Below are positions 1 to 24,917 of a stretch of 64,000 nt of DNA, piece after piece; within the stretch, counting starts at the first letter, position 1, and every line of letters begins with the position of its first letter. Position numbers and translations under genes: made by a program. The stretch comes from an uncultured Kordia sp. (GTDB lineage: Bacteria > Bacteroidota > Bacteroidia > Flavobacteriales > Flavobacteriaceae): positions 496,001-560,000 of the forward strand of contig NZ_CANMEZ010000004.1 of assembly GCF_947496985.1 (NCBI RefSeq). Direction: 5' to 3'. The notes under the pieces were generated by a model. It was not told the origin of the DNA, made no database searches, and was given only the letters and a program-made list of their open reading frames with translations.

Positions 1-62
1 TCCGAAAAAAGATGAATTTAATAGCTGGACAAGAATTAGAATATATCATTCAAAGCCTTTAA
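1..62 (+). CDS. C-terminal tail of a TPR-HTH regulator (partial, cut by left edge)
   Basis: The frame starting at base 3 reads RKKMNLIAGQELEYIIQSL and stops at 60-62. This aligns by eye with the C-terminal ends of the TPR-TM-HTH regulators in this window, for example KKKLNLSAKDSLDEYVNSI at the end of the regulator at 27748 and LRKKLDIAKTIDIINFLE at the end of the one at 6335. The DNA CGAAAAAA at the start is also shared with that gene. I infer the last ~20 residues of another regulator of this family, directly upstream of the first giant LRR gene, which matches the gene order seen elsewhere. Another frame (2-109) is also open but gives no family resemblance. Confidence 0.5.
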   Translation, partial: RKKMNLIAGQELEYIIQSL

Positions 63-130
63 ATACTAGGCTGTCACTTTTTGTTACCAAAAATCATAGC
101 ACATTATAAGTACTAATTTAGCGGCATTGT

Positions 131-138
131 TACTTTTG
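131..138 (+). promoter_or_regulatory. -7 box of the first giant LRR gene
   Basis: TACTTTTG matches the Bacteroidota -7 consensus TANNTTTG and lies 28 nt upstream of the ATG at 167. No clear -33 TTTG is present at the expected distance. A loose relative of the TGTCCAGT direct repeat (TGTCACTT then TGTTACCA) occurs at 72-89, but the spacing to this box differs from the other loci. Confidence 0.5.
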
Positions 139-166
139 TTTCTCACTGATATTTATACAAAAGACA

Positions 167-7900: not shown

Positions 7901-7925
7901 AAAAACTGTCCAGTTTTTGTCTAGT
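7901..7925 (+). promoter_or_regulatory. TGTCCAGT direct-repeat element, copy 1
   Basis: Two 8-mers in the same orientation, TGTCCAGT at 7907-7914 and TGTCTAGT at 7918-7925, start 11 bp apart (one helical turn). The first is also the right arm of the near-palindrome AAAAACTG-TC-CAGTTTTT. Thirty-one nt separate the element from a -7-like box at 7957. Copies at 10121 and 18277 have the same layout. It is probably a binding site for an activator, possibly the adjacent HTH regulator. Confidence 0.6.
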
Positions 7926-7956
7926 TGCCATTATTAAGACTGAGTATTATTTTTTG

Positions 7957-7964
7957 TAGTGTTG
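7957..7964 (+). promoter_or_regulatory. -7-like box of the short regulator paralog
   Basis: TAGTGTTG differs from TANNTTTG at one position and ends 5 nt before the ATG at 7970. It lies exactly 31 nt after the direct-repeat element, the same distance as at the other three loci. Confidence 0.4.
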
Positions 7965-7969
7965 TAAAC

Positions 7970-8446
7970 ATGAAAAAAATATACTGTATTCTTTTTATAA
8001 TTACATTGGTCTTAGGTGCTATGATTGCGCTCTTTTTAAAGTATAAAAAACGTTTACTTGAGTTAGAAAACAAAATCTTATTGCAGGAAAAAGAACAAAT
8101 AAAAGATGAACTCTATAAACTCAAAAATAATCCTAGTGATGAAGAACGCATCAAAGCAAAGCAAGAAATCCTAAAACTCAAAATTTTAATAGATGAAGAT
8201 TGGATTCGATTTAGAGATAAATTTGAACTGCTCTATCCTAACTTTTTAAATACATTAACTACTTCTAAGTTTCATTTCACAAAATCTGAAAAACGATTCT
8301 TAATGCTAAAAAAACTAAACCTTGAAACCAAAGAAATTGCAAATATGGTGGGCGTTTCATATGATAGTGTCTTAAAAACGCAATATAGACTTCGAAAAAA
8401 AATGGCTATTGATAAAACTATTGATATTATTAACTTTTTAGAGTAA
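7970..8446 (+). CDS. Short TM-HTH regulator paralog lacking the TPR domain
   Basis: I chose the ATG at 7970 (158 residues) because it follows a -7-like box and begins directly with a hydrophobic helix (KKIYCILFIITLVLGAMIALFL). The frame is also open upstream to a TTG at 7925, but that start would overlap the direct-repeat element. The membrane segment, coiled coil and HTH (ETKEIANMVGVSYDSVLKT) match the last ~165 residues of the regulators at 6335 and 8513, while the signal peptide and the whole TPR sensor are missing. The frame is intact, so it may be a constitutive or competing DNA-binding version rather than a decayed gene. It lies between its two full-length paralogs, which suggests that it arose by unequal duplication. 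Confidence 0.75.
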   Translation: MKKIYCILFIITLVLGAMIALFLKYKKRLLELENKILLQEKEQIKDELYKLKNNPSDEERIKAKQEILKLKILIDEDWIRFRDKFELLYPNFLNTLTTSKFHFTKSEKRFLMLKKLNLETKEIANMVGVSYDSVLKTQYRLRKKMAIDKTIDIINFLE

Positions 8447-8512
8447 ATGTTTTTTATTCATAAACACTAAAAATAATGTTCTTTAATCAATAAGAATAGG
8501 TAATTTTAAACT

Positions 8513-10111
8513 ATGAAAAAGGTCTTATATGTTCTTATGCTGTGTGTGTGTTTTACAACTAGCTCTCAAGAAATAGATACTACACTTGTACGATTACAAG
8601 AAAAACTGCATAACGCTCCATCAGATTCTATAAAAGTAGAAACATTACTAAACTTAGGAAAATATCAATTTGGACGCGATAATTACAGTGCTGAAGATTA
8701 CCTGCTAAAAGCAATCGATTTCATAGAAAATGATGCGTATTCCTCTGATCATCAGTTGGCGATTGCCTACAGAGTTTTGGGTGCTGTAGAACGAAGAAAA
8801 GGAAACTATAAAAACACATTTGCCAATTACTATAAAGCATTACGATTATCGTCAGAACCTCAGCATGTGGCAACTGTACATCATAATTTGGGTACAGCAA
8901 AACTTTTTCAATATGAGTTTCCAGAAGCTATAGCTGAGTTTCGCAAAGCAATCTCTATTTGGGAAGATTTAAACAATTATGCTGATGCAGCTGGAAGTTA
9001 TCAAGAAATAGGCGGCGTATATCGTTCTACAAAGCAACTGGATTCTGCTAAATTTTATTATGAAAAAGCTTTAAAAATGTTTGCAATAGGATATAAAGAC
9101 GATACTCTAAAATATATAAATAGATATTATGGAATCCAGAAGAGTCTTGGATTGGTACTATTGCATAAAAAAAAATACGACAGCGCGCTTTCTAAATTCA
9201 AAGAAGCAAGAATACATTTTTCGAAACCGAATCACGATAAGAGTCGATTAATAATAGTAAATGGTAGCATTTCAGAAGCTTATTACCATAAAGGCAACTA
9301 TAAAGAAGCAATTCGGTATGTAAACGAAGCCCTTTCTATAAGTAAGTCAGAAGGTTTAAAATATCGCATTGCTTCATCTTTAAGAAGACGAAGCAGATTA
9401 TACCAACGAATGGGGAATTTTGATGCTGCACTTGACGATTATAAGTTATATAAAAAGTATTCAGACTCGCTGATAAATGCAGAAACGATAAAAAAGATTC
9501 AAGCGCAGGAATTAAAGTATGTATTTGAAAAAGAAAAATTAGCAGATAGTATCGTGTTTGCGCAAGAAAAAAGAAAAATTGAACTAGTGGCAGACAATGA
9601 AGCTTCTAAAAAGAAGATCTATCTTATTCTTTTAATCACTACATTAATTCTTAGTACTATCATTGCATTTTTAGTAAAGAGAGATTTCAAACACAAAAAA
9701 CGTGTATTGGAATTAGAGAATAAAAACTTAATACAAGAAAAAGAACAAATTACGAATGCTTTTACTAAACTTAAAAATAGTACCAATGCTGAAGAATGTA
9801 TCAAAGCAAAGCAAGGCATCTTAAAACTAAAAATTTTGACGGATGATGATTGGTTACATTTTAGAGATAAATTTGAATTGCTCTACCCTAGTTTTTTAGA
9901 TCTTTTAAAAGACAGTAACTTTCAATTTACAAAATCTGAAACACGACTCCTTATTCTGAAAAAATTAGATTTAGAAACAAAAGAAATCGCGAATATGACA
10001 GGAGTTTCTAATGATAGTGTACTAAAAACGCAATACAGACTTCGAAAAAAACTTGACATTGCTAAAACTATTGACATCATTCTCTTTTTAGAACAATCGG
10101 CTGAAAACTAA
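8513..10111 (+). CDS. TPR-TM-HTH membrane-anchored transcriptional regulator
   Basis: This 532-residue paralog of the gene at 6335 has a signal peptide (MKKVLYVLMLCVCFTTSSQ) and TPRs at about residues 60-340 (ATVHHNLGTAKLFQYEF, AISIWEDLNNYADAAGSYQE). A transmembrane helix at ~367-388 (IYLILLITTLILSTIIAFLV) is followed by a coiled coil and the C-terminal HTH (ETKEIANMTGVSNDSVLKT). About 50 bp across the HTH are identical to the gene at 6335. It is immediately followed by the direct-repeat element at 10121 and the second giant LRR gene at 10208, which I infer to be its target. There is no clear -7 box upstream of its ATG. Confidence 0.85.
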   Translation: MKKVLYVLMLCVCFTTSSQEIDTTLVRLQEKLHNAPSDSIKVETLLNLGKYQFGRDNYSAEDYLLKAIDFIENDAYSSDHQLAIAYRVLGAVERRKGNYKNTFANYYKALRLSSEPQHVATVHHNLGTAKLFQYEFPEAIAEFRKAISIWEDLNNYADAAGSYQEIGGVYRSTKQLDSAKFYYEKALKMFAIGYKDDTLKYINRYYGIQKSLGLVLLHKKKYDSALSKFKEARIHFSKPNHDKSRLIIVNGSISEAYYHKGNYKEAIRYVNEALSISKSEGLKYRIASSLRRRSRLYQRMGNFDAALDDYKLYKKYSDSLINAETIKKIQAQELKYVFEKEKLADSIVFAQEKRKIELVADNEASKKKIYLILLITTLILSTIIAFLVKRDFKHKKRVLELENKNLIQEKEQITNAFTKLKNSTNAEECIKAKQGILKLKILTDDDWLHFRDKFELLYPSFLDLLKDSNFQFTKSETRLLILKKLDLETKEIANMTGVSNDSVLKTQYRLRKKLDIAKTIDIILFLEQSAEN

Positions 10112-10120
10112 ATACATACC

Positions 10121-10145
10121 AAAAATTGTCCAGTTTTTGTCCAGT
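10121..10145 (+). promoter_or_regulatory. TGTCCAGT direct-repeat element, copy 2
   Basis: TGTCCAGT occurs at 10127-10134 and again at 10138-10145, 11 bp start to start. The element begins 9 nt after the stop of the regulator gene and ends 31 nt before the TAGGTTTG box of the giant LRR gene. It is a candidate activator site. Confidence 0.65.
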
Positions 10146-10176
10146 GCAATTTTGGCATTATTTATTGTAATACACG

Positions 10177-10184
10177 TAGGTTTG
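10177..10184 (+). promoter_or_regulatory. -7 box of the second giant LRR gene
   Basis: TAGGTTTG matches TANNTTTG and lies 23 nt before the ATG at 10208. A TTTG at 10151-10154 is a possible -33 box but has a long spacer (22 nt). The surrounding sequence TGTAGGTTTGTC / CGTAGGTTTGTC is shared with the promoter at 18333. Confidence 0.6.
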
Positions 10185-10207
10185 TCCTGTTTTTAAACGA
10201 ACCTACA

Positions 10208-13200
10208 ATGAAACAGAAATCCCTTATTATTCTCTTATTCGCTTGTATTTGTCAAACTGCTTTTGCACAAACAACTTCGATTCCCGATCCTATTTTTGAA
10301 AACTTTTTGGAAAGTAATGGCATGGGAAATGGTATTGCAAATGATCAATTAGTGACGACTGCTAATATTGTAAACAGAACCAACTTAAACGTTGAAGACT
10401 TAAATATTAGTGATCTTACAGGAATTGAAGATTTTACAAGTTTATCCGAACTATTAGCGTCTGGAAATGCGCTGCAAAGTCTAGATTTAAGTAACTTAAC
10501 AAACTTAAATTTTGTTACGTTACACGACAATCAATTAGCAAGCTTAGATATTTCTAACAATCCTAATTTAGGTTCGCTGACCGCTTGGAATAATGGACTT
10601 ACCACGATAAATATTACAGGTTGTGTTGGACTTGCTGAATTGTATTTAGAAGACAATCTATTAACAGACTTAGATCTTTCACTATTTCCAAACCTTAACG
10701 CTATAAACGTTACCAATAATCAGTTAACAACACTGAATATTAAAAATGGTACAAATAATAGCAGTCTAAACTATTCTTCAGCTATAAGTGCAACAGGGAA
10801 CCCTAATTTAGAATGTATTACGGTAGATGATCCTGTGTTTTCAGCATCAATTTGGATGAATATTGACACAACAACTTCTTTTAGTACTGACTGTAACGCA
10901 ACAACTTACGTACATAATGATATTTTTGAAGACTATTTAGAAACGCATGACGCGGATGGAAATATAGTTTCTGTAGGAGATGCAACGAGTATGGGAAATG
11001 GTATTGCAAATGACGATTATGTAAAAACACCAAGAATTGAAGGCGTTACGACATTGGATGTTAATTCACTCAATATCAATGATCTTACAGGAATTGAAGA
11101 TTTTGCGGCATTACAAACCTTAAGTTGTTACTTAAATCAATTAACAACATTAAATCTTGCTAGTAATGTGAATTTACTAGAGTTGCAAGCAAGTAATAAT
11201 TCGTTGGCACAATTAAATCTCAGTAATAATACAGCTTTACAAACTATAAATATTGATAACAATACGATTGACGAATTAGATCTGTCAAACAATACAGCAT
11301 TAATATCTGTAACTGTTTCTAGTAATGACTTGATACTATTAGACATGAATAACGGTAATAATGGTGCCATTACTTCATTGCTTGCTACAGGGAATCCCAA
11401 TTTATCATGTATTAATGTAGACAATGCTGCTGTAGCAAATACGTATCCTGGTTGGAGTAAAGATGCGACAACGAATTATGAAGAAGACTGTAATAAAACC
11501 TACGTTCCTGATGCAAACTTTGAAAACTACTTAGAAACACATGATGCTGCTGGAAATACAGTTGCTGTAGGAGATGCAACAAGTATGGGAAATGGCATTG
11601 CTAATGATGGAATTGTGCATACCACAAGAATCGAGAATGTAACTAGTTTATCTATGGTTTTTAAAGGAATCATTGACCTTACGGGAATTGAAGATTTTAC
11701 AGCGCTACAAACTTTAAACTGTCCATTTAATAACATCGTGACGCTTGATCTTTCAAGCAATCTAGCATTAACTTCAGTAAATGCAGTGACTAATAATATT
11801 CAAATTGTAGATGTATCTAATAATACCAATCTTACAAATCTAACTGTAAGTTCTAATAGTATTCAATCCTTAGATTTATCTAGTAATACTGGACTTACAT
11901 ATATAGCTGTATCAAATAATCAGCTTACGTTCTTGAATATTCAAAATGGAAACAATGGAAACGTTACTAATTTTATTGCAACTCAAAATCCAGATTTAAC
12001 CTGTATCAATGTAGATGATGAAAACGCATTTTATTTAACTGATTTTCATTGGAATAAAGATAGTACAGCAACTTATGGTATTCATTGTGATGAAACTTAT
12101 ATTCCTGATGCTAATTTTGAAAACTATTTGGAAACAAATAATCTAGGAAATGGTGTCGCAAATGATAACTACGTATTCACTAGTAACATTTCGGGAATGC
12201 AAACTTTAAATATAGGCAACTTAAACATTGCTGATCTTACAGGGATTGAAGCATTTGTAGCTTTACAAAGCTTATCCTGTTACCGAAATGACTTAACTAC
12301 ATTAGACCTTAGTGCAAATACCGCATTGATAAACTTACTATGCTACAACAATCAACTAACTACGTTAGATTTGAGTAATAATACAGCTTTAGAACTCTTA
12401 GATGCAAATACAAATACTATTTCAAGTTTAAGTCTTGAAGCAAACATTGCTTTAAAAGAAATAAACTTAGATGGCAATGATTTAACATCGTTAAATCTTA
12501 CTACCTGTGTTGTATTGGAAAAACTAAGCGCTAACAATAACAACTTAGAAGAATTGAATATCGCAAACGGAAATAACCCAGCGATTACCCAATTTGTTGC
12601 TACTAACAATCCAAACTTAACCTGTATCCAAGTCGATGATGAAACGGCTTCCTATTTATTAAACACGAGCATTTGGAACAAAGATGATATCGCGTCGTAT
12701 AGCATCCGTTGTGACGAAACCTACATTCCTGATGCAAATTTTGAAAACTATCTGGAAACGCATGATGCCAATGGAAATATAGTTCCGCTAAACGATCCAA
12801 CAAGCATGGGGAACGGAATTGCCAACGATAACTATGTAACGACAGCAAATATAAATACGGTAACGTCTTTAGATATAAATAGTCAAAACATTTCAGATGC
12901 AACAGGAATTGAAAATTTTACTGCTTTAGAAACGTTTGTCTGCTATTCAAACAACTTAAGCACATTAGATGTGAGCGCTAACACAGCACTAAAAAATCTA
13001 ATATGTCAAACTAATAACTTAACAGCTTTAGATGTGAGTGCAAATACAGCATTAGAAGCTCTTGTGTGTCATACAAATAACTTAACCGCATTAGACCTAA
13101 CGACCAATGTAAATCTAATCGTATTAACTGCTAATGACAATTTGATTACTTCCATAGATGCAGAGACTTGCGTTACATTAGAAGAATGTATTGTATCCAA

Positions 13201-16200
13201 TAACAACTTAGATACACTTAATGTAGCTAATGGAAACAATGATCATATGGCTTTTAATGCTACAGGAAATCCAAATCTTAGCTGTATAAATGTAGATAAT
13301 GATGCTGCTGATTACTTAATGTATTGGTTGAAAGATACGACAGCTTCCTTTAGCGCGCATTGCTACGAAACCTACATTCCTGATGCAAATTTTGAAAACT
13401 ACCTGGAAACGCATGATGCTAATGGAAATACAGTTTCGATAGGAGATGCAACAAGTATGGGAAATGGTATTGCAAATGATCAGTATGTAACTACTGTTAA
13501 TATTAATACAGTAAGCAATTTAGATATTCTTAATCTAAATATAGCTGACCTTACAGGGATTGAAGGCTTTGTGGAATTAATAGAATTAAAAGCAAACGGT
13601 AATTTATTTACGACTATTGATGTGTCAAGTCTTTCTCAGTTAACTACAATGTTTCTCCATAACGGAAGTTTAACAGCTTTGGATGTGACTGCTAATCTAT
13701 TACTTGAAGATTTAAGAGTAGAAAACAATCAACTGACGGAAATTGACTTGACGAACAACACGGCTCTTAGAATTTTACAAATTAATGGTAATAGTTTAGC
13801 ATCAATTGATGTGACTAATAATATAGAATTGGCACGTATACGTACGTATGCCAATCCAATTACTGAATTAGACTTATCTAATAATCCACTATTGACTCAA
13901 GTATGGGTCAACAACTCAAGTCAATTAACCACATTGGACATTAAAAATGGAAACAATGGTATTATAGCTAGTTTTAATGCTAGAAACAATCCAAATTTAA
14001 CCTGTATCAATGTAGACAATTCAGCAGCATCGTATTTAAGTTCTTGGGGGATAAACCTAGATGGTTCCACGTCTTTTGGAGAGCATTGTTATGATACCTA
14101 TATACCTGATAATAATTTTGAAAACTACTTAGAAACGCATGATGCAGATGGAAACACAGTAACACTTGGAGATCCGTCAAGTATGGGGAATGGTATTGCG
14201 TTTGATGATCATGTAACTACGGCAAAAATCAACACGGTAACTTCTTTAAATGTGGCTGGTAAAAGTATATCAAACCTAACAGGAATAGCAGAGTTTACAG
14301 CTTTAGAGGAATTATACTGTAGTAGTAACAATATAAATTCGTTAGATCTAAGTATAAATACAGCATTAAGAAGATTAGAATGTAATATCAATATTTTATC
14401 TGCATTAGATCTTAGTACAAATACGAATTTAGAACACGTAAACACTGACAATAATCCAATTTCAGCGTTAAATCTTAGTACGAATGTAGCGCTTACATTT
14501 TTAACATGTCAAAACAATCAACTAACGAGTTTAGATCTTAGTAACAACCCACTACTAACAAGTATTTTTGCAGCTAACAACACGATTTCAACCGTAACTT
14601 TTGGTGCAAATACTGTTTTAGAAACGTTAAGTCTGAACGATAACAGTTTAACAACAATAGACGTATCTCAACTTACAGGATTAGAAAGTTTATTTTTGGC
14701 AAATAATAGCATCACAAGCATCAACCTAATCAGTAATCCAAATCTATTAACTGTTTCGGTAGAAAGTAATGCATTAACGGAATTAGATGTAAGAAATGGC
14801 GTAAATGGCCAAATTACCGCATTCACAGCGCAAAACAATCCAAACCTAACTTGTATCAATGTAGATGACATTTCTGAACCAAGATTAAATGACTGGACTA
14901 TAGATACAGGTATTGCCTCGTTTGCCGAACATTGTAATGAAACGTACGTGCCAGATATTAATTTTGAAATTTACTTAGAAACACATGATGCTGACGGAAA
15001 TATAGTACCAGTAAACGATCCTACAAGTATGGGGAATGGAGTCCAAAATGATAACTATGTAAAAACCTCTCGTATTGAAAATGTGACAAGTTTAGATATA
15101 AGCTTTTTCAATATTGTGGATGTCACTGGTATTGAAGCCTTTACAGCTTTACAATCATTTAACTGCTATGATAATTCTATCACTACAGTAAACTTGAGTG
15201 CAAATACTGCATTGACAAATCTAAACTGTAGCCACAATCAATTAACAGCATTAGATATTAGCGCAAATGTAAATTTAGAAGTATTACAAGCTTCTCAAAA
15301 CAGTATTGGAACCATAGATTTACAAAATAATACAGCACTCAAAGAAATCTATCTACAAGGAGCTAGTTTAACAACACTAAATCTTGATCCGTGTGTGGCA
15401 TTGGAAATTGTAGATGTAACCTTTAACAGCTTAACGGAGTTGAGCATACAAAATGGAAACAATGGAAACATTACAGATTTCAATGCAAATGCAAATCCTC
15501 CATTGAGTTGTATTAGTGTAGATGATGAAACGGCTAGCTACTTAAGTTTACTTCCTTGGAGAAAAGATGCTGCTGTAGTTTTTAGCGAAAATTGTGGAGA
15601 AACCTACATTCCTGATGCTAATTTTGAAAACTATCTGGAAACGCATGATGCCAATGGTAATATAGTTTCTCTAGGTGATCCGATGAGTATGGGGAACGGA
15701 ATTGCAAATGATCAATATGTATTGACTAGCAGGATTTCGGAAGTGAACACATTGAATATAAGTCAACAAAATATTGCAGATGTTACAGGAATCGAACGTT
15801 TTACACAACTGGAATCCTTTATGTGTTACAATAATAATATCATAACACTAGATGTAAGTGCAAACACTGCTTTGGAAACATTAATATGTTTTAGAAATAA
15901 TATAACGACCTTAGATGTAAGTGGAAACACCGCATTAATTACATTAGTCTGTTACTTTAATGAACTAACAACTCTTGATGTAAGCACCAATGTAAACTTA
16001 GAAATTATTGAAGCTGGAAATAACCAACTAACGACCGTAGATGTAAGCTCCAATACAGTTATAAAACAAATTGCGCTCTACAGTAATGACTTAATATCAC
16101 TAAATGTAGATGCCTGTGTAGTATTAGAATATCTCAATTTAAAAGATAATGACTTAACCGAATTAAGAGTTGTAAATGGTAATAACGGAGCAATCACAGG

Positions 16201-18076
16201 TTTTGATACGACACTAAATCCAAATTTAATCTGTATCAGCGTAGATGATGTGACAGATCCAGCTTTAAATGATTGGTTGATAAACGTAGATGGTTCCACA
16301 TCTTTTGGCGAACATTGTAACGAAACGCAAGTGCCAGATGCTATTTTTGAAAACTATCTGGAAACACACGATGCAGATGGAGATACGGTGACTATTGGCG
16401 ATCCAACAAGTATGGGGAATGGAATTGCAAATGATGGATATGTACGTACAGCAAGCATTCAATCGGTGATGAATTTAAGAGTTTCCAATCTCGATATAGT
16501 AGACTTAACAGGAATTGAAGATTTCACAGCATTAGTAGATTTAAACTGTAGCAGAAACCTATTAACAAGCATAGATGTAAGTCAAAACGTATTACTAACG
16601 GATCTAATTTGTAGCAGAAACCAGTTAACAAGCTTAGATGTTTCTCAAAACATATTACTAACAGACCTATTTATTGCAGACAATCAAATTACAAGCATAG
16701 ATTTATCTCAAAATACACTACTAGACTTTGTATCTGCATCAGAGAATCAACTAACGAGTTTAGATCTTTCCAACAATCCATTGATGGAAGAATTAGAGTG
16801 TACAGAAAACCTATTAACGAGCCTAAATATAAATCAATGTACTGTTTTAAGAGACTTGATCTGTAATGATAACAATCTGCAAACAATAGATTTAACAACG
16901 AATACAGGATTGGTATATTTTGAAGCAAATAATAATGATTTGACAAGTTTAGATATTTCTCAAAATACAAACTTGGATTATTTCTCAGTGGAAAACAATC
17001 TACTAACGAGCATAGATGTATCCCAAAACACGAATTTGCAGGCGTTCTCTGTAGAAGATAATCAAATAACAAGCTTGGATTTATCTTTAAATGTCAACTT
17101 AGAAGAAGTCATCTGTCGTAGCAACGCGCTTACCAGTTTGAATCTTAAAAATGGAAATAATGGAAACATTGATTTGGTTTTAATCAATAACAATCCAAAT
17201 TTAACCTGTGTACTTGTAGATGATGCTTCTTATTCGTTTCCTTTTCAAATTAAAGACTTCCAAACGATGTATAATGAAGTAACCTGCGGAATTCAAGTGT
17301 CGCCAAAAGTGCTATTGCAAGGCGCTGCTTTAAATCCAATGACAGGAGAAGAAACGCTAATGCGAGACGATTTACGAACAGCTTCACTCCTACCAACTAC
17401 AAGTCCTTACGGAGATAACAGAACCTGTAATAGTACTGTTTTTGATGTGACCGGAACTGATGCCATTGTTGATTGGGTTTGGATAGAATTGCGCGATGCA
17501 ACGAACAACATGCTTGTACTAGAAGCAAAATCAGCTTTATTACAACGCGATGGAGATGTGGTAAGTGTAGATGGTGTTTCTGCGGTAGACTTTAATGACG
17601 CTTCCGCGGGAAATTACTATGTGACACTAAAACATAGAAATCACTTAGGAATCATGACGTCAACTACGATTGCATTGGCACAAACGGAAACTACAGTAGA
17701 TTTTACAGACGCAAACGACCAAATTACCTATGGAAGCAATGCACAAACAACCTTTGGTATGCAAACCGATATGATAGCGATGTGGACAGGAAATGCAAAT
17801 GAAGATACAATTGTTCAATACTCAGGAACAAATCCTGATACACCAACGATTCTATCTTCTGTGTTAAACGATGCTGGAAACTTTTTAAACTTTCCAACCT
17901 ATATCGTTGGTGGATATAACGCAAATGATGTCAATATGGATGGAGATACGCAATACTCAGGAACAAACCCTGATACGCCTTTCATTCTTCAAAATGTATT
18001 GGCACATCCTGGAAACTTCCTAAACTTTAGTACCTATCAAATCATAGAACAATTGCCAGAAAACTTGAACAATTAA
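10208..18076 (+). CDS. Giant secreted LRR protein (2622 residues, ten LRR blocks)
   Basis: After a signal peptide (MKQKSLIILLFACICQTAFAQ) there are ten header-LRR-cap blocks. The header is usually ETYIPDANFENYLETHD followed by SMGNGIAND; block 2 has the variant TTYVHNDIFEDYLETHD. LRRs have a ~21-residue period (LTTLDLSNNTALELLDANTN type), and each block ends in NGNN followed by a two-cysteine cap (LTCINVDD ... C). The last block, residues ~2060-2350, has the longest LRR run. Residues ~2365-2622 are the shared C-terminal module (PKVLLQGAALNPMTGEETLMRDDL, ALLQRDGDVV, HRNHLGIM, two dockerin-like loops). Likely an exported adhesin or binding scaffold. The repeated blocks are similar at DNA level, so their number may vary between strains. 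The upstream promoter pairs it with the regulator at 8513. Confidence 0.9.
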   Translation: MKQKSLIILLFACICQTAFAQTTSIPDPIFENFLESNGMGNGIANDQLVTTANIVNRTNLNVEDLNISDLTGIEDFTSLSELLASGNALQSLDLSNLTNLNFVTLHDNQLASLDISNNPNLGSLTAWNNGLTTINITGCVGLAELYLEDNLLTDLDLSLFPNLNAINVTNNQLTTLNIKNGTNNSSLNYSSAISATGNPNLECITVDDPVFSASIWMNIDTTTSFSTDCNATTYVHNDIFEDYLETHDADGNIVSVGDATSMGNGIANDDYVKTPRIEGVTTLDVNSLNINDLTGIEDFAALQTLSCYLNQLTTLNLASNVNLLELQASNNSLAQLNLSNNTALQTINIDNNTIDELDLSNNTALISVTVSSNDLILLDMNNGNNGAITSLLATGNPNLSCINVDNAAVANTYPGWSKDATTNYEEDCNKTYVPDANFENYLETHDAAGNTVAVGDATSMGNGIANDGIVHTTRIENVTSLSMVFKGIIDLTGIEDFTALQTLNCPFNNIVTLDLSSNLALTSVNAVTNNIQIVDVSNNTNLTNLTVSSNSIQSLDLSSNTGLTYIAVSNNQLTFLNIQNGNNGNVTNFIATQNPDLTCINVDDENAFYLTDFHWNKDSTATYGIHCDETYIPDANFENYLETNNLGNGVANDNYVFTSNISGMQTLNIGNLNIADLTGIEAFVALQSLSCYRNDLTTLDLSANTALINLLCYNNQLTTLDLSNNTALELLDANTNTISSLSLEANIALKEINLDGNDLTSLNLTTCVVLEKLSANNNNLEELNIANGNNPAITQFVATNNPNLTCIQVDDETASYLLNTSIWNKDDIASYSIRCDETYIPDANFENYLETHDANGNIVPLNDPTSMGNGIANDNYVTTANINTVTSLDINSQNISDATGIENFTALETFVCYSNNLSTLDVSANTALKNLICQTNNLTALDVSANTALEALVCHTNNLTALDLTTNVNLIVLTANDNLITSIDAETCVTLEECIVSNNNLDTLNVANGNNDHMAFNATGNPNLSCINVDNDAADYLMYWLKDTTASFSAHCYETYIPDANFENYLETHDANGNTVSIGDATSMGNGIANDQYVTTVNINTVSNLDILNLNIADLTGIEGFVELIELKANGNLFTTIDVSSLSQLTTMFLHNGSLTALDVTANLLLEDLRVENNQLTEIDLTNNTALRILQINGNSLASIDVTNNIELARIRTYANPITELDLSNNPLLTQVWVNNSSQLTTLDIKNGNNGIIASFNARNNPNLTCINVDNSAASYLSSWGINLDGSTSFGEHCYDTYIPDNNFENYLETHDADGNTVTLGDPSSMGNGIAFDDHVTTAKINTVTSLNVAGKSISNLTGIAEFTALEELYCSSNNINSLDLSINTALRRLECNINILSALDLSTNTNLEHVNTDNNPISALNLSTNVALTFLTCQNNQLTSLDLSNNPLLTSIFAANNTISTVTFGANTVLETLSLNDNSLTTIDVSQLTGLESLFLANNSITSINLISNPNLLTVSVESNALTELDVRNGVNGQITAFTAQNNPNLTCINVDDISEPRLNDWTIDTGIASFAEHCNETYVPDINFEIYLETHDADGNIVPVNDPTSMGNGVQNDNYVKTSRIENVTSLDISFFNIVDVTGIEAFTALQSFNCYDNSITTVNLSANTALTNLNCSHNQLTALDISANVNLEVLQASQNSIGTIDLQNNTALKEIYLQGASLTTLNLDPCVALEIVDVTFNSLTELSIQNGNNGNITDFNANANPPLSCISVDDETASYLSLLPWRKDAAVVFSENCGETYIPDANFENYLETHDANGNIVSLGDPMSMGNGIANDQYVLTSRISEVNTLNISQQNIADVTGIERFTQLESFMCYNNNIITLDVSANTALETLICFRNNITTLDVSGNTALITLVCYFNELTTLDVSTNVNLEIIEAGNNQLTTVDVSSNTVIKQIALYSNDLISLNVDACVVLEYLNLKDNDLTELRVVNGNNGAITGFDTTLNPNLICISVDDVTDPALNDWLINVDGSTSFGEHCNETQVPDAIFENYLETHDADGDTVTIGDPTSMGNGIANDGYVRTASIQSVMNLRVSNLDIVDLTGIEDFTALVDLNCSRNLLTSIDVSQNVLLTDLICSRNQLTSLDVSQNILLTDLFIADNQITSIDLSQNTLLDFVSASENQLTSLDLSNNPLMEELECTENLLTSLNINQCTVLRDLICNDNNLQTIDLTTNTGLVYFEANNNDLTSLDISQNTNLDYFSVENNLLTSIDVSQNTNLQAFSVEDNQITSLDLSLNVNLEEVICRSNALTSLNLKNGNNGNIDLVLINNNPNLTCVLVDDASYSFPFQIKDFQTMYNEVTCGIQVSPKVLLQGAALNPMTGEETLMRDDLRTASLLPTTSPYGDNRTCNSTVFDVTGTDAIVDWVWIELRDATNNMLVLEAKSALLQRDGDVVSVDGVSAVDFNDASAGNYYVTLKHRNHLGIMTSTTIALAQTETTVDFTDANDQITYGSNAQTTFGMQTDMIAMWTGNANEDTIVQYSGTNPDTPTILSSVLNDAGNFLNFPTYIVGGYNANDVNMDGDTQYSGTNPDTPFILQNVLAHPGNFLNFSTYQIIEQLPENLNN

Positions 18077-18097
18077 TTAAACATAAAGATTAAAGAA

Positions 18098-18224
18098 ACT
18101 GTCTAAAAAGTTAAAATATTTGAAGTTGTCACATTGAGCGCAGTCGAAATGCTTTGATAATTAGCACTTATTATTTCTCGACTGCGCTCGAAATGACAAT
18201 AATTAAGACTTTTCAGATAGCCTA
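18098..18224. repeat. Dispersed palindromic repeat, copy 2
   Basis: CTGTCTAAAAAGTT at the left end is inverted relative to GACTTTTCAGATAGCC at the right end. Inside, TTGAGCGCAGTCGAAAT pairs with TTTCTCGACTGCGCTCG, giving a strong stem. The right end GACTTTTCAGATAGCCT matches copy 1 at 6150-6282. It lies downstream of a giant LRR gene, as copy 1 does, so it may have been copied along with the LRR unit. Confidence 0.65.
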
Positions 18225-18276
18225 ATCATTACAGAAGTAACTTTTACAACAATTCACTGAAAATCAAATAAGTAAC

Positions 18277-18301
18277 AAAAACTGTCCAGTTTTTGTCCAG
18301 T
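18277..18301 (+). promoter_or_regulatory. TGTCCAGT direct-repeat element, copy 3
   Basis: TGTCCAGT occurs at 18283-18290 and 18294-18301, 11 bp apart, embedded in AAAAACTG-TC-CAGTTTTT. It ends 31 nt before the TAGGTTTG box at 18333. This copy has no regulator gene directly upstream, which argues against it being only a terminator of the regulator gene. Confidence 0.65.
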
Positions 18302-18332
18302 CAAACTTATGTAATATTTATTGTTTTACATG

Positions 18333-18340
18333 TAGGTTTG
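18333..18340 (+). promoter_or_regulatory. -7 box of the third giant LRR gene
   Basis: TAGGTTTG matches TANNTTTG and lies 25 nt before the ATG at 18366. There is no recognisable -33 TTTG at normal spacing, which fits an activator-dependent promoter. Confidence 0.6.
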
Positions 18341-18365: not shown

Positions 18366-21300
18366 ATGAAACAAAAATTACTATATATTCTTTTATTGGC
18401 ATGTATCAGTCATACTGCTTTTGCACAAACTACCACGATTCCCGATGCCAATTTTGAAGCTTTTTTAGAAGCCAACAATATGGGAAATGGAATTCCAAAC
18501 GATCAGTTGGTAACAACTGCCAATATTGAAAACGTAACTGTGCTAAGTTTTAGTGTACAGAATAGAGCTGGTGGTGAAAACACTTCAAATATTTCAAACA
18601 TTAGCGATTTAACAGGAATTGAAGATTTCACGGCATTAGAAGAACTCAATTGCAATGCATTACAACTAGTACATTTAGATTTGACAAGCAATCTAAATTT
18701 AAGAAAGGTATTTGCTAACGATAATGCACTAGAAACCATTAATGTTAATGGACTTACTGCATTAGAAAGACTAGAATGTGAACGCAATGTACTTGAAAGC
18801 CTTTCTTTAAATACAAATCCGGCAATAACTACTGTATTGGCAAATAACAATTCGTTTCAAACAATACATATAAAAAACGGGAACAATAGTGGAATTGATA
18901 CTTTTAGAGCACAAAACAACCAAAATATTATATGCATCAATGTAGATAATACAGCGGAAGGTTTTCTTTCGGAGTGGGATTTAGACACATTATCTGGTTT
19001 TGGAAATCATTGTGGCGAAACATATGTTCCAGATGCTGATTTCGAAACTGAGCTAGAAACCAATGGTATGGGAAATGGAATTGCCAATGATAACTATGTA
19101 ATTACAGCAAATATTGAAAATGTAACGACATTAGATCTTATTGGAGATATCTTAGATCTCACAGGAATCGAAGATTTTACTGCATTAATAAATTTGAATT
19201 GTGCAGGTACAGACATTACTACCGTAAATCTAAGTGCGCTTACACAGTTAGAAACATTGAATTGTGAAAATACCAATTTGGTGAGCTTAGATCTCACAGC
19301 AAATACCAACCTAACAACGTTAAATGCTTCTGGTACCAATATTTCCGAACTAGACCTTTCTCAAAATTCAGCATTAACCGCGTTAAGAGTAAGTTCAAAT
19401 CCTAATTTAACAGCGCTAAATATAAAAAACGGGAACAACACAAATATTACAGAGATTTTTACGGGCGGTACGGAGTCCAATGTATCTTGTATTTTAGTAG
19501 ATGATCCTGCATATTCACGGGAGAATTGGACTGTTGCAAATACTACGTTATTTAGTGATGTAGATTGCGCAACAACAGAAGTTCCTAGTGAAGCGTTACG
19601 AGATAGATTATCTATAATTCCAGGATTAGACGGAGCAGTTTCTGGTTCACACATATTAAATCATAAAGCAGCGATACTAACTACTCTAAGTATTACTGGT
19701 AGTAGTGTTAATGATTTAACGGGTATTGAAGCTTTTACAGGATTACAAGAATTAAGTTGTATTAACACAAATATCACAAGTTTAGATTTAAGTCAAAATA
19801 CTGCCTTAACCAAATTATATTGTAATGACAATGCATTGACAAGCTTAAATATAAGTCAAAATGTAGTATTAACAGAGTTACATTGTTTCAATAATAATAT
19901 CGCAAGCTTAGATGTAAGTCAAAATGTATTATTAACGGAGTTATACTGTTCAAACACCAATTTAACTAGCTTAGATCTTACAGCAAATACCAACCTGACA
20001 ACGTTATATGCTTCTGGAATCAATGTTGCCGCACTAGACCTTTCTCAAAATTCAGCATTAACCATACTAACAGTAGATACGAACCCTAATTTAGTGTCTC
20101 TCAATATAAAAAACGGAAACAATGTCAATATTACCGACATTATTATTGGTGATGCATCATCCAATTTAGCTTGCATATTAGTGGATGATCCTGTATACTC
20201 ACGGACAAACTGGAGTTTTGTAAATCCTATGTTGCTTAGCGATATAGATTGTGCACTAACAGAAATTCTCGACGCTAATTTTGTAGATAGTTTACATCTA
20301 ATTCCAGAATTAGATGGAGCAATTGCTGGTTCAAACATATTAAATCATAGAGCAGCAACTATTACGGTTTTAGATGTAAGTAATACTAATAATATTAACG
20401 ATTTAACAGGTATTGAAGCCTTTACAGGTTTGCAAGAATTAGACTGCTCTAACACAAGTATCACAAGTTTAAATCTAAGCCAAAATACAGCTTTAACCAA
20501 ACTATATTGCCATGACAATGCGCTGACAAGCTTAGATGTAAGTCAGAATGTATTGCTAACGGAATTATATTGTTTCGACAGTGACATTGCAAACTTAGAT
20601 CTAAGCCAAAATACAGTATTAACAAAATTACATTGTTACAATAATGATATCGTAAACTTAAATGTAAGTCAAAATCCATTGCTAACGGAGTTACATTGTT
20701 ACAGCAATGATATCGCTACCTTAGATCTAAGTCAAAGTGTATTACTAACAGAGTTGCATTGTAACATTAATAATATGGCAAACTTAGATGTGAGCCAAAA
20801 CGTATTACTAACGGAGTTATATTGCAATGACAATATATTAACAGAGTTAGATGTTAGCTTAAATACGCAATTGATAGCATTTGATTGCTCTTCCAATCAA
20901 TTAATACGTTTAAACCTAAAAAACGGAAACAATGGAGCGTTTACCACAAGTAAATTAGATGCAAATCCAAACTTAAGTTGTATCAAAGTAGATGATCCTA
21001 CAGCATCTTATCTAGCTGATATATGGGTAAAAGATGCGCAAAGTAGTTATGATCTTACTTGTGGCGAAACCTACATTTCTGATGATAATTTTGAAAACTA
21101 TTTGGAAACCCATGATGCTTCCGGAAATGAAGTTCTTGCAGGCGAACCTACAAGTATGGGAAATGGTGTTGAAAATGATAATTATGTAACGACAACAGCG
21201 ATCAATACGGTAACTCAATTATATGTTGGCGGAAGAGGAATTGCAGATTTTACTGGAATTCAAGATTTTGTGGGATTAACGCAATTACGTATTGAGAGTA

Positions 21301-24300
21301 ATACAAATACTACGATTGATATTTCAAACCTTACGAATTTAGAACGTTTTACAGCACATAGTAATGGAAACCTTACTTCTGTGAATCTAACAGGATTGAC
21401 GAATTTAGATTATATCAGAATTAATAATACAAGTTTGACCAGTCTGGATGTAAGTACCAATACCGCTTTAGAAGTATTATGGGCATTCACAATACCAACG
21501 CTAACAGATGTTATTGATTTTTCTAACAATACATTGCTTCGTCAAGTATTAGTTCATAATTCAGGAACTACTGGAGAACTCGATCTAAGTAATCTTACGA
21601 ACCTCAAGTATTTAGATTGTAGAAACAATGATCTCTCAACAGTCAATGTGAAAAATGGAAATAATGCGAATGTTACCTTTTTTAATGCAACCAATAACCC
21701 AAACTTAAGTTGTATTCAAGTAGATGATAGAGTCTATTCCACAAATCAATGGAGTGATATTGATGCACAATCATTTTTTACAACAGATTGTCGCCAGACA
21801 AATATCCCTGACGCAAATTTTGAAAACTATTTAGAAACCCATGATGCAACTGGAAATACAGTTTCGGTAGGCGATCCAACTAGTATGGGAAATGGCGTTG
21901 CCAACGATAATTCGGTGTCTACTATTCATATAGAAAACGTAACGAATCTAGAAGTTTCTAATAAAGGAATTGTAAGCCTCACGGGAATTGAAGATTTTAC
22001 AGCGCTTACAAACTTAAATTGTTCTCGCAATCAAATTCAGAATTTAGATGTTACCGCAAATACTGCCTTAATTGAGTTCAATTGTTTTGATAATGAACTA
22101 ACAAGCTTAGATGTTACACAAAATGTATTGTTAAATACATTATCTGTTAATGATAATCAATTGACGAGTATCGATCTTACAAATAATACAGCAATAGATT
22201 TTTTATATCTTGAAAACAATCAAATTTCAAATTTAGACTTATCTCAAAATGTGCAATTGAGCTATTTTGTGGTAGGTAATAATCAATTAACGAGTCTCGA
22301 TTTTTCTCAAAATACGCTAATTACAGATATTGGTTGTCAAGATAATATGTTGACAAACATAAATTTGAGTCAGAATACACTAGTAAGAGAATTAGATTGT
22401 AGTAACAATCAATTGGCAAGTTTGGATGTAACAGCAAATACAGCATTACAGTCATTGAATACAGCTAATAATCAATTGACTTTACTAGATCTTACTCAAA
22501 ATACCAATTTAGAATATTTTACAGGCAACAACAATCAATTAGAAACATTAGACCTTTCCTTGAATACCTTACTTGAAACCGTAGAAGTTACAGACAATGC
22601 TTTAACAACGATCAATCTAAAAAATGGAAATACGACAAGCATAACTAATTTTAAATCAACCAATAATCCTAATTTAAGTTGTGTTTCGGTAGATGATGTC
22701 ACGCATGCCAATACCTATTGGGTTGCGAAAGATGCACACACATTTTTTAATGAAGACTGTAGGCAAACCTATATTCCTGATGATAATTTTGAAAACTATT
22801 TGGAAACGCATGATGCCAGTGGAAACACAGTAAGCATTGGAGATGAAACGAGTATGGGGAATGGAATTGACAACGACGATTATGTAAATACAGATGATAT
22901 AGAGAATGTAACGAGCTTACAAATTCACAATCAAAATATAGCAGACCTTACAGGAATTGAAGATTTCACGACTTTAAACAATCTCAATTTCAGCGAAAAC
23001 CAGATAGTTGCTGTGGATTTAACAAGCAATATTGATTTAAGATTGCTGACATTAAATGATAATCAAATTACTTCGATGGATTTAAGTGGAAATCCTGATT
23101 TAATAGCTATTATAGCTAATGATAATCAATTCACGCATCTTGATTTTTCTGCAAATACAGCATTGGAATTTATTGAAGTACAAAACAATCAATTAACAAG
23201 TTTGAATATTAAGAATGGAAACAATATAAATTTCAACTATTTTGATGCGACCAACAATCCAAATCTAACCTGTATCAATGTCGATGATGAAAATGCCTCG
23301 TATTTAACTACTCAAAATTGGTTAAAAGACATAACAGCTTCGTATGGCGAACATTGCTATGATACCTATGTGCCCGATGCTAATTTTGAAGCCTATTTGG
23401 AAGATCGTAATTACGGTAACGGAATAGACAATGACAAGTATGTAACCACAGCCAATATCGTAGATGTAACCTCATTGAACATATTTTTGGGTCCATTTCC
23501 TTCCAACGATGATTTGATTGCTGATATGACAGGAATTGAAGATTTTACAGCACTCAAAACACTCATTGTTCGTAAAGGTTTATTTCAAAGTATCGATGTG
23601 AGTCAAAATCTACTCTTAGAAACCTTGGTGTTTTTCGATGGAGCATTGACGAGTTTGGATGTCACACAAAATACAGCGCTAACGACGTTAACATGTAGCA
23701 ACAACAACTTAACAACCTTAGATCTAACTCAAAACATAAACCTTGTCGAGTTGAATTGTAATAGCAACAATTTAACAGCGTTAGATGTCACCCAAAATCC
23801 AGCACTTTTCTATATAAATTGCTCAAGAAATCAGCTAACGAGTTTGGATATTACGCAAAATCCGCTTCTAGAAGGCTTAGAATGTTTTGATAATCAACTC
23901 ACAAGCTTAGATGTTAGTCAACATCCCGTATTTAACTATTTATTTGCTCATGACAATCAACTCACAAGTTTAAATGTTGCAAATGGAAACAATACGAATA
24001 TGACACAATTTGAAGTGTATGGGAATCCAAATCTAACCTGTATTAAAGTTGATGATGCCGCAGCAGCTACCGCGGGAATGGGCAATTACAATAATTGGGA
24101 TAAGGATGCGCAAGCTAGTTACAATGATGTAAGTTGCGATATCATTCTAGTGGCTCCAAAAGTATATTTGCAAGGTGCCGCTATAAATCCAATTACAGGA
24201 GAAGAAACGCTGATGCGCGATGATTTACGAACTGCTTCACTCCTACCAACGACAAGTCCGTACAGTGACAATGTAACTTGCGATGCTGCCGTTTTCAATA

Positions 24301-24917
24301 CTACAGGAACGGATGCTATTGTCGATTGGATTTGGGTAGAATTGCGTGATGCAAACGACAATACCTTAGTAATCGATGCACAATCAGCATTGCTACAACG
24401 TGACGGAGATATAGTAGCAGTAGATGGAATTTCTGAACTAGGTTTTAATCAAAATGTGAGTGACTATTATATCGCAATAAAACATCGAAACCATTTAGGC
24501 ATCATGACGTTCAATACGGTTGCGTTGACGACTAATATCACTTCCGTAGATTTTACAAACGAGAACAACCAAATTACACATGGAATCAATGCACAAGCAA
24601 CCTTTGGAATGCCGGCGGATATTGTAGGTATGTGGACAGGAAATGCAAATGGAGACACGCTCATTCAATACTCTGGAACTGATCCAGATGTAACTAAAAT
24701 TTTAGCTACCGTATTAAATGATGCTGGAAACTTCTTAAACTTTCCAACATATAGTGTTGTTGCATACACAACAGATGATGTAAACATGGACGGAAACACG
24801 CAATATACGGGAACGACTCCCGACTTGACTTTCATCCTTCAAAATGTATTGGCACATCCTGGAAACTTTCTAAACTTTAGTACCTATCAAATCATAGAAC
24901 AATTACCAGAAAACTAA
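18366..24917 (+). CDS. Giant secreted LRR protein (2183 residues, eight LRR blocks)
   Basis: The signal peptide (MKQKLLYILLLACISHTAFAQ) is nearly that of the gene at 10208. Eight header-LRR-cap blocks follow. Blocks 3 and 4 are unusual: their headers read EVPSEALRDRLSIIPGLDGA and EILDANFVDSLHLIPELDGA, and the two blocks are tandem copies. Block 4 has a long run of LSQN-type LRRs (LTELHCYSNDIATLDLSQS). Residues ~1930-2183 are the shared C-terminal module with loops GNANGDTLIQYSG and DVNMDGNTQYTG. Likely surface-exposed or secreted. The T9SS-tagged gene at 24945 starts 27 nt after its stop, so the two are probably co-transcribed. The promoter carries the same direct-repeat element as the gene at 10208. 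Confidence 0.9.
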   Translation: MKQKLLYILLLACISHTAFAQTTTIPDANFEAFLEANNMGNGIPNDQLVTTANIENVTVLSFSVQNRAGGENTSNISNISDLTGIEDFTALEELNCNALQLVHLDLTSNLNLRKVFANDNALETINVNGLTALERLECERNVLESLSLNTNPAITTVLANNNSFQTIHIKNGNNSGIDTFRAQNNQNIICINVDNTAEGFLSEWDLDTLSGFGNHCGETYVPDADFETELETNGMGNGIANDNYVITANIENVTTLDLIGDILDLTGIEDFTALINLNCAGTDITTVNLSALTQLETLNCENTNLVSLDLTANTNLTTLNASGTNISELDLSQNSALTALRVSSNPNLTALNIKNGNNTNITEIFTGGTESNVSCILVDDPAYSRENWTVANTTLFSDVDCATTEVPSEALRDRLSIIPGLDGAVSGSHILNHKAAILTTLSITGSSVNDLTGIEAFTGLQELSCINTNITSLDLSQNTALTKLYCNDNALTSLNISQNVVLTELHCFNNNIASLDVSQNVLLTELYCSNTNLTSLDLTANTNLTTLYASGINVAALDLSQNSALTILTVDTNPNLVSLNIKNGNNVNITDIIIGDASSNLACILVDDPVYSRTNWSFVNPMLLSDIDCALTEILDANFVDSLHLIPELDGAIAGSNILNHRAATITVLDVSNTNNINDLTGIEAFTGLQELDCSNTSITSLNLSQNTALTKLYCHDNALTSLDVSQNVLLTELYCFDSDIANLDLSQNTVLTKLHCYNNDIVNLNVSQNPLLTELHCYSNDIATLDLSQSVLLTELHCNINNMANLDVSQNVLLTELYCNDNILTELDVSLNTQLIAFDCSSNQLIRLNLKNGNNGAFTTSKLDANPNLSCIKVDDPTASYLADIWVKDAQSSYDLTCGETYISDDNFENYLETHDASGNEVLAGEPTSMGNGVENDNYVTTTAINTVTQLYVGGRGIADFTGIQDFVGLTQLRIESNTNTTIDISNLTNLERFTAHSNGNLTSVNLTGLTNLDYIRINNTSLTSLDVSTNTALEVLWAFTIPTLTDVIDFSNNTLLRQVLVHNSGTTGELDLSNLTNLKYLDCRNNDLSTVNVKNGNNANVTFFNATNNPNLSCIQVDDRVYSTNQWSDIDAQSFFTTDCRQTNIPDANFENYLETHDATGNTVSVGDPTSMGNGVANDNSVSTIHIENVTNLEVSNKGIVSLTGIEDFTALTNLNCSRNQIQNLDVTANTALIEFNCFDNELTSLDVTQNVLLNTLSVNDNQLTSIDLTNNTAIDFLYLENNQISNLDLSQNVQLSYFVVGNNQLTSLDFSQNTLITDIGCQDNMLTNINLSQNTLVRELDCSNNQLASLDVTANTALQSLNTANNQLTLLDLTQNTNLEYFTGNNNQLETLDLSLNTLLETVEVTDNALTTINLKNGNTTSITNFKSTNNPNLSCVSVDDVTHANTYWVAKDAHTFFNEDCRQTYIPDDNFENYLETHDASGNTVSIGDETSMGNGIDNDDYVNTDDIENVTSLQIHNQNIADLTGIEDFTTLNNLNFSENQIVAVDLTSNIDLRLLTLNDNQITSMDLSGNPDLIAIIANDNQFTHLDFSANTALEFIEVQNNQLTSLNIKNGNNINFNYFDATNNPNLTCINVDDENASYLTTQNWLKDITASYGEHCYDTYVPDANFEAYLEDRNYGNGIDNDKYVTTANIVDVTSLNIFLGPFPSNDDLIADMTGIEDFTALKTLIVRKGLFQSIDVSQNLLLETLVFFDGALTSLDVTQNTALTTLTCSNNNLTTLDLTQNINLVELNCNSNNLTALDVTQNPALFYINCSRNQLTSLDITQNPLLEGLECFDNQLTSLDVSQHPVFNYLFAHDNQLTSLNVANGNNTNMTQFEVYGNPNLTCIKVDDAAAATAGMGNYNNWDKDAQASYNDVSCDIILVAPKVYLQGAAINPITGEETLMRDDLRTASLLPTTSPYSDNVTCDAAVFNTTGTDAIVDWIWVELRDANDNTLVIDAQSALLQRDGDIVAVDGISELGFNQNVSDYYIAIKHRNHLGIMTFNTVALTTNITSVDFTNENNQITHGINAQATFGMPADIVGMWTGNANGDTLIQYSGTDPDVTKILATVLNDAGNFLNFPTYSVVAYTTDDVNMDGNTQYTGTTPDLTFILQNVLAHPGNFLNFSTYQIIEQLPEN
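19580..21065 (+). repeat. Tandem duplication of an LRR block inside the third giant LRR gene
   Basis: The DNA at about 19580-20263 recurs at about 20264-21065 with a register of roughly 684 bp. For example, a stretch encoding IPGLDGA at 19617 matches one encoding IPELDGA at 20301, both followed by ILNH and AA. The second copy is longer because it carries extra LSQN-type LRRs. The divergent header shared by both copies is not found in the other LRR proteins. Confidence 0.65.

Follow-up and report, generated by a model that had tools for sequence, protein, structure and literature searches.

In this study, we report paired octamers that precede promoters at a nearly fixed distance in the window (the whole stretch of 64,000 nucleotides of Kordia DNA analysed here) and that recur, with other letters, in other genomes of the family. 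They frequently adjoin genes of one family of regulators composed of TPR, one membrane segment and a LuxR/GerE-like HTH (TPR-TM-HTH), and their letters correlate with the recognition helix of the regulator encoded nearby. Taken together, these sequence features make it highly probable that the pairs are operators through which the TPR-TM-HTH regulators activate promoters mostly devoid of a −33 box.

Paired octamers and promoters in the window

The pattern TGTCCAGT-TTT-TGTCYAGT was found at 7907, 10127 and 18283 (Table 1). In each pair the octamers start 11 bp apart and a −7 box follows after exactly 31 nt (at 7957, 10177 and 18333), which confirms the period and the distance given for the three pairs in the preliminary description. 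There, all three were attributed to promoters of giant LRR genes; this holds for the genes at 10208 and 18366 and not for the 7907 copy, which lies upstream of a 158-codon regulator gene (7970-8446). A promoter in front of a regulator gene was not among the points raised at that time, nor was a family-wide system with co-varying letters. The transcript from the 7957 box would possibly be leaderless.

A scan of the window for the pair with up to three mismatches gave 4 matches, vs 0.25 expected in shuffles. The complete genome, 5.48 Mb in 61 contigs, was also scanned for the 19-mer pair, with the backward sequence as control. At ≤3 mismatches it contained the three window copies (0, 0 and 1 mismatch) and one match with 3 mismatches, the control giving 2. 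No further copy of the pair was present in the window genome at ≤2 mismatches and, in this genome-wide motif search, which had been suggested earlier, the motif was not seen at that threshold without a box 31 nt on.

Table 1. Regulator genes, likely target genes, predicted operators and −7 boxes of the window.
Feature	Position	Strand	Remarks
TPR-TM-HTH regulator, 518 aa	6335..7891	+	Recognition helix NDSVLKTQYRLRKKL, codons 7790-7834; vs G009 copy dS 0.64, dN 0.039
Operator 1 (predicted)	7907..7925	+	TGTCCAGTTTTTGTCTAGT = TGTCCAGT-TTT-TGTCTAGT; precedes sensorless regulator gene 7970
−7 box after operator 1	7957..7964	+	TAGTGTTG; one mismatch to TANNTTTG; 5 nt before ATG at 7970
Sensorless regulator, 158 codons	7970..8446	+	TM + LuxR-like HTH, no TPR; helix YDSVLKTQYRLRKKM; vs G009 copy dS 0.50, dN 0.056
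TPR-TM-HTH regulator, 532 aa	8513..10111	+	Recognition helix same as 6335, codons 10010-10054
Operator 2 (predicted)	10127..10145	+	TGTCCAGTTTTTGTCCAGT = TGTCCAGT-TTT-TGTCCAGT; precedes giant LRR gene 10208
−7 box after operator 2	10177..10184	+	TAGGTTTG, exact TANNTTTG
Likely target: 2622-aa LRR protein	10208..18076	+	Signal-like N terminus
Operator 3 (predicted)	18283..18301	+	TGTCCAGTTTTTGTCCAGT = TGTCCAGT-TTT-TGTCCAGT; precedes giant LRR gene 18366
−7 box after operator 3	18333..18340	+	TAGGTTTG, exact TANNTTTG
Likely target: 2183-aa LRR protein	18366..24917	+	Signal-like N terminus

The sigma-A −7 box of Bacteroidota (TANNTTTG) is exact in two of the three window sites and carries a single mismatch in the other. 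Sigma-A promoters of flavobacteria have a TAnnTTTG box at −12 to −5 (PMC9723704), so that the pair spans about −62 to −44. The −7 box is alike in these promoters and in the paired-octamer sites, whereas a −33-like TTTG is mostly missing from the latter, being found 17-23 nt before the −7 box in only 5/37 and 6/33 sites (G356, G153, G255b, G187b, G127 and G295b were left out of these counts and of the logo). The earlier claim that the −33 boxes are weak or missing does not hold strictly in the window, as 10127, alone among the three window sites, has TTTG (10151-10154, 22 nt upstream of the 10177 box).

The position of a site does not by itself determine the sign of regulation, and the regulators might bind the pairs and repress. 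Repressor sites, however, tend to overlap the core promoter and to vary more in position, while the pairs stay clear of it, ending 31 nt before the −7 box in one fixed register. The scarcity of TTTG is, moreover, as expected of activator-dependent promoters. Repression is in our opinion very improbable, activation being the preferred reading.

Recurrence of the sites in related genomes

Among the 11 genomes of the genus examined, the pair was present at ≤1 mismatch in one other, G009, with four copies in one cluster; a fifth copy, with two mismatches, lies behind the ortholog of the gene at 8513. All five G009 copies have 31 nt to the box, and the counterpart of operator 1 is identical (19/19 bases). 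Over eleven window-type sites from four genomes, identity was 95% in the pair vs 43% in the 31-nt spacer. Additionally, a scan of the genome collection with the window-type regulators returned three other species, and the site was found in 3/3. The regulator and LRR genes of the window are tandem paralogs and two of the copies come after paralogous regulator genes, as if the repeats were gene-end or duplication debris, or recombination points expanding the LRR array, with no regulatory role. This explanation, which we regard as extremely improbable, is contradicted by the third window copy, from which the preliminary description had already concluded that the repeats are not simply a gene-end feature, and by three of the G009 copies; all of these come after LRR genes. 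Gene-end or duplication debris was rejected, given that the spacer has diverged and the pair has not, and that the geometry recurs with other letters and in other genera.

Searching 397 genomes of the family for the full pattern at ≤3 mismatches gave 36 matches in 27 genomes, vs 6 for the backward control. When the gap was allowed to vary from 16 to 46 and no mismatch was accepted, 13 matches in 10 genomes were obtained vs 1 in the control, with a gap of 31 in 10 of the 13 and gaps of 34, 25 and 32 in the others. Outside the window genome the gap was 31 in 8/11 matches (binomial P about 2e-10, for one preset of 31 gaps). The surroundings of 36 sites outside the genus were fetched, 33 from the full-pattern and 3 from the variable-gap search. 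According to our own ORF calls, 33 of these 36 sites are intergenic; that of G059 overlaps only a short antisense frame, and those of G356 and G153, inside genes, are probably due to chance. In 14/36 sites, a TPR-HTH gene of the same strand ends 11-601 bp upstream, while in G129 the site lies in front of such a gene and in G187b it is divergent from one. Such a gene is consequently found within about 600 bp in 16/36 sites and anywhere in the fetched stretch in 22/36 (6 elsewhere). The other 14, G356 and G153 among them, have no TPR-HTH gene in the fetched stretch, although several stretches end at contig ends, and for two of them (G193 and G029) the regulator is 8-12 kb off. One-turn spacing, same orientation and constant distance, taken earlier as a regulatory layout, recur with other letters and in other gene orders.

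The reverse approach started from the regulators. Profile A2, built from 18 regulators, was run on 41 family genomes and then on 41 further chosen ones, mostly large; in this second set, 6/56 matches had no fetched flanks. Loci of the window genome were excluded from the count of AGT-type pairs, from the first letter-free test and from the count of 94 regulators given below. An AGT-type pair with ≤2 mismatches occurred 16 times in the first 40 regulator loci, vs 1.6 in shuffled sequence. The letter-free test looked for 8-mer repeats between genes with a perfect TANNTTTG behind them. In the first 40 loci, period 11 gave 21 register matches, 20 of them at d 28-34, vs 0-3 for periods 9, 10, 12, 13 and 22, period 21 giving 8. 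The corresponding figure for period 11 in 30 second-set loci was 50, with 38 at d 28-34 and the remaining 12 contributed by L174 and by L184 read in reverse, vs 1-9 for periods 8-10, 12-14, 21 and 22. None of the matches of period 21 (8 in the first set and 4 in the second) was near d=31, and the letter-free peaks were located at the overlapping registers d=30-32.

When TGT was required in the second unit, a requirement set after the letter-free results, which took in 70 of the same 90 loci, a site at spacing 31 was found in 33/94 regulators (90 loci). The other 30 spacings together accounted for 34 cases (mean 1.1 each), 8 of them at spacing 32; in L171, L174, L176 and L192 this spacing seems to be a genuine minor class. 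Of the cases with a perfect box, 24/28 were at spacing 31. No site at spacing 31 was found within the scan for 61/94 regulators. In total, 35 spacing-31 sites were present in 406 kb of regulator loci, while 516 kb comprising the site-first loci, L011 and the window, regulators included, contained 2 beyond those behind the choice of the loci; one of these two, L067, looks genuine. In 29 class-level loci, many of which match the TPR part only, the letter-free test gave nothing at 31 with a perfect box. Outside the order (198 genomes), 3 site matches vs 4 in the control were found, that is, chance level; one of them (G479, L237) is directly 3' of a TPR-HTH gene, and this arrangement was also observed in L147, where the box is poor (GACATTTG).

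The regulators and the letters of the neighbouring sites

The genes at 6335 and 8513, named as candidate binders in the preliminary description, belong to the site-adjoining TPR-HTH family. Pfam revealed TPR families and nothing else in 6335, 8513 and 27697, the histidine kinase and AraC domains typical of HTCS not being found by Pfam in these three, and the gene at 7970 had no Pfam match. Matches to Pfam TPR_MalT were below the curated cut-off, as was a match to the NCBIfam kinase FimS, limited to the N-terminal 402 residues or less. In the model of 8513 (mean pLDDT 84, pTM 0.56), TPR helices extend to about residue 320 and are followed by a long helix with a hydrophobic stretch near 368-388 and, at the C terminus, by an HTH whose recognition helix spans 500-514; the best 50 Foldseek matches listed for the full-length model were mostly TPR proteins. 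A signal-like N-terminal stretch and basic residues past the membrane segment suggest that the TPR part would lie outside the cell membrane.

By sequence similarity, the C-terminal domain is of the LuxR/GerE type. Its profile A4, compared with PDB sequences, matched EsrB (7vim, E 6.4e-4) and StyR (1yio, 0.004) and, more weakly, VpsT (0.039) and NarL (0.066); given that the unrelated chains 8vd6 and 3s84 reach 0.007-0.009, weight is placed on EsrB and StyR alone. The AlphaFold2 model of this domain (pLDDT 89), examined for the four-helix HTH fold, had mostly LuxR/GerE proteins as Foldseek top matches (VraR, TMt 0.79; GerE, 0.75-0.76); with a best E-value of 0.2, its likeness to these proteins and to DosR is weak by that measure.

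One recognition helix is common to 6335, 7970 and 8513. With respect to their G009 copies, the full regulators have dS/dN of 0.48/0.073 and 0.64/0.039 (the second being 6335), and the similar values of 7970 indicate that this gene is maintained. Rfam found nothing beyond one tRNA in 7 loci. Further TPR-HTH genes exist in the window genome, and those examined (before gene 167, before 29705, L138 and L139) have no spacing-31 site at ≥6/8 letters. Two weak, chance-like spacing-31 sites with 5/8 letters were seen in L139, and before gene 167 there is TGTCACTTTTTGTTACC, with period 10, 42 nt upstream of TACTTTTG (counted by eye).

For the comparison of helices with octamers, we compiled 48 regulator-site pairs, of which 33 were regulator-first, 13 site-first and 2 from the window, and 40 distinct helices were tested; G071b, whose second unit lacks the initial TGT, was dropped from the association test. 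Of the 16 strongest associations between helix columns and octamer positions, 13 were reached in 0/1000 shuffles, which ignore descent; many of the pairs are related by descent, so that the counts given here do not represent independent events. One helix residue is mirrored in the letters that come after TGT: Q goes with TGTACCC, N with TGTCACC and Y mostly with TGTC(C/T)A. In the second octamer of the 21 KK(A/S)R-subfamily pairs, positions 4-6 were CCA (10), CTA (2) or CCG (1) with Y, ACC (6) with Q and CAC (2) with N. Among the Y helices, another residue accompanies position 5, E with C (10/10), A and N with T (1 each) and D with C (1). The covarying residues align to 501 and 508 of 8513, both inside the recognition helix. 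L183 (DG..Y, TGTCCGCC/TGTCCGGC) and L140 fit this pattern poorly, and the two octamers of a pair are unequal in L216 and L234.

When the 397 genomes were searched for TGT(A/C)(A/C)CC pairs, 17 sites were returned vs 0 in the control. A regulator adjoins 14 of the 17, and the 6 regulator-site pairs not in the earlier set all had the expected residue (Q four times, N twice). Sensor similarity does not match the specificity class: the sensor of L184 (Q) is 71% identical to that of L183 (Y) and at most 30% identical to those of other Q members. The C-terminal domain outside the helix agrees with the class in 17/21 cases, and therefore exchange of the module together with its site is as possible as repeated switching.

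The pho box of PhoB is an 11-bp direct repeat with TGTC at its core. Given this likeness in geometry and letters, the pairs could belong as operators to some other protein, such as a winged-helix regulator of the OmpR/PhoB type, with the TPR-HTH genes as mere frequent neighbours; the gene directly upstream of the site-first locus L066 is, by eye, AraC-like. PhoB, however, belongs to the winged-helix OmpR family, while the letters of the paired octamers vary with a LuxR-like helix, even between paralogs of one genome. A single fixed regulator would mean a single fixed site per genome, and the four paralogs of genome G220 have four different sites (L180, TGTCTACC; L199, TGTCCACC; L205, TGTCACCC; L206, TGTACCCC). 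Together with the fit of the new regulator-site pairs, this makes a different protein very improbable, and binding by the TPR-HTH regulators themselves is preferred.

Proposed mechanism, known systems and likely target genes

In the mechanism that we infer, as regards binding, dimer geometry, activation, membrane topology and amplification, the regulators would be membrane-anchored one-component proteins in which one TM helix joins a cytoplasmic HTH of the LuxR/GerE type to a TPR sensor on the outer side of the inner membrane. Two adjacent HTH domains, separated by one turn of DNA, would occupy about −62 to −44 and would recruit RNA polymerase to, or position it at, a TANNTTTG promoter mostly without a good −33 box. 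The TGT of each octamer is common to the family and the following letters would be read by the recognition helix, so that paralogs in one cell could be directed to different promoters that share one geometry. In the window, 6335, 7970 and 8513, sharing one helix, would all act on the three sites and in this way switch on the giant LRR surface proteins. Via the 7907 site, the sensorless HTH protein 7970 would be made and would amplify the response, and given the shared helix and its own predicted operator it is a candidate amplifier.

We also consider it reasonably probable that the system represents a Bacteroidota-wide form of addressing, in which each of the many paralogous membrane TPR sensors of a cell would own promoters by means of a near-invariant geometry and a helix-to-letter code, sensor and address being re-pairable in evolution. 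Two thirds of the scanned regulators have no recognisable site and the spread beyond the order comes down to single loci, which speaks against generality. If the addressing is true, targets would be predictable from the regulator sequence. The fixed geometry and the helix-letter code would then allow the prediction of regulons from genome sequence for another membrane-regulator family, the regulons concerned being glycan-use operons, secreted surface proteins and pore-forming-protein loci, and the paralog set would be a natural series for protein-DNA recognition tests.

Among known systems, MalT likewise combines a TPR-like sensor with a LuxR-type HTH at its C terminus and is an activator whose boxes, also direct repeats, lie upstream of the core promoter. 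In contrast to the membrane-anchored TPR-TM-HTH regulators, it is a cytoplasmic ATPase without transmembrane segment. The SusR-like regulators of Bacteroides are also membrane regulators with the sensor outside and the HTH inside, and with predicted direct-repeat sites near glycan-use genes (Ravcheev et al. 2013, PMC3878776); some paired-octamer loci have SusC-like genes behind the site (by eye). They differ in spacing, their direct repeats being predicted 67 or 77 bp apart, vs 11 bp here (periods 8-14, 21 and 22 were scanned). HTCS regulators are Bacteroidota membrane sensor-regulators with predicted direct-repeat sites as well, but according to that paper they have an AraC-like output and a predicted repeat distance of 21 bp on average, vs a LuxR-like HTH, no Pfam kinase domain and 11 bp here. 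Other regulators are described in PMC10316084 and PMC12125979, and no description of an 11-bp pair with the 31-nt distance was found in searches of the open-licence PMC literature.

Besides the LRR giants, the genes behind the sites include, by eye, SusC-like genes and secreted proteins. A 2024 paper on Thiol_cytolysin-type proteins in Bacteroidota (PMC11169675) mentions no such regulator in its accessible text. Of ten target fragments submitted to Pfam, eight came from the TGTACCC, TGTCCAC, TGTCTAC and TGTCCAT classes, and Thiol_cytolysin was found in 4 of these 8.

The regulator and LRR gene array of the source contig

Regulators with a TPR sensor, one membrane segment and a LuxR/GerE-like HTH (TPR-HTH) alternate with or adjoin giant LRR genes in an array, in which the spacing-31 site (paired octamers 31 nt before a −7 box) was detected in the central part alone. 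Box TAGTGTTG and the ATG of the gene for the sensorless regulator are separated by 5 nt, so that the mRNA of this gene, to judge from the sequence, may be leaderless. A looser pair, TGTCAC-N4-TGTTAC, is located 3′ of another TPR-HTH gene and 42 nt upstream of TACTTTTG, and it is perhaps a variant of the same geometry.

Features by position
Feature	Location	Details
Array	G000:C4 490543-525415	
TPR-HTH regulators of the array	G000:C4 near 490543, 494422, 502335, 504513, 523697	contig coordinates
Looser pair	window 50-170	before gene 167; period 10
Box and ATG of sensorless regulator	window 7957-7972	
Further TGTTTAGTTTATGTCTAGT site	L067, minus strand, about 2460 (reversed coordinates)	spacing 31, box TAACTTAG
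TGTCTAGT class	L067, L078, L079, L081, L087, L088, L090	gene neighbours as in text
Conserved leader	up to about 110 nt 3′ of −7 box	L178, L198, L200, L179, L201, L205, L177 and others

Site classes in other genomes

Sites of the TGTCTAGT class are repeatedly found close to genes which, judged by eye, resemble GH2, GalT, dehydrogenase and SusC genes, and this suggests a putative galactan-use regulon. One of these fetched loci, L067, carries a further TGTTTAGTTTATGTCTAGT site 3′ of a TPR-HTH gene, which was picked up solely as background.

Leader downstream of the sites

Many TGTCCACC- and TGTACCCC-class sites are trailed by a conserved leader, roughly TGTCATTAAGTTGACA ... CGTTTTGTGGTCTTG ... 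GGCTGCAGACC. At the seven loci searched, no Rfam family matched this leader. The genes downstream are not alike, yet the leader is kept; it is possibly a structured 5′ leader.
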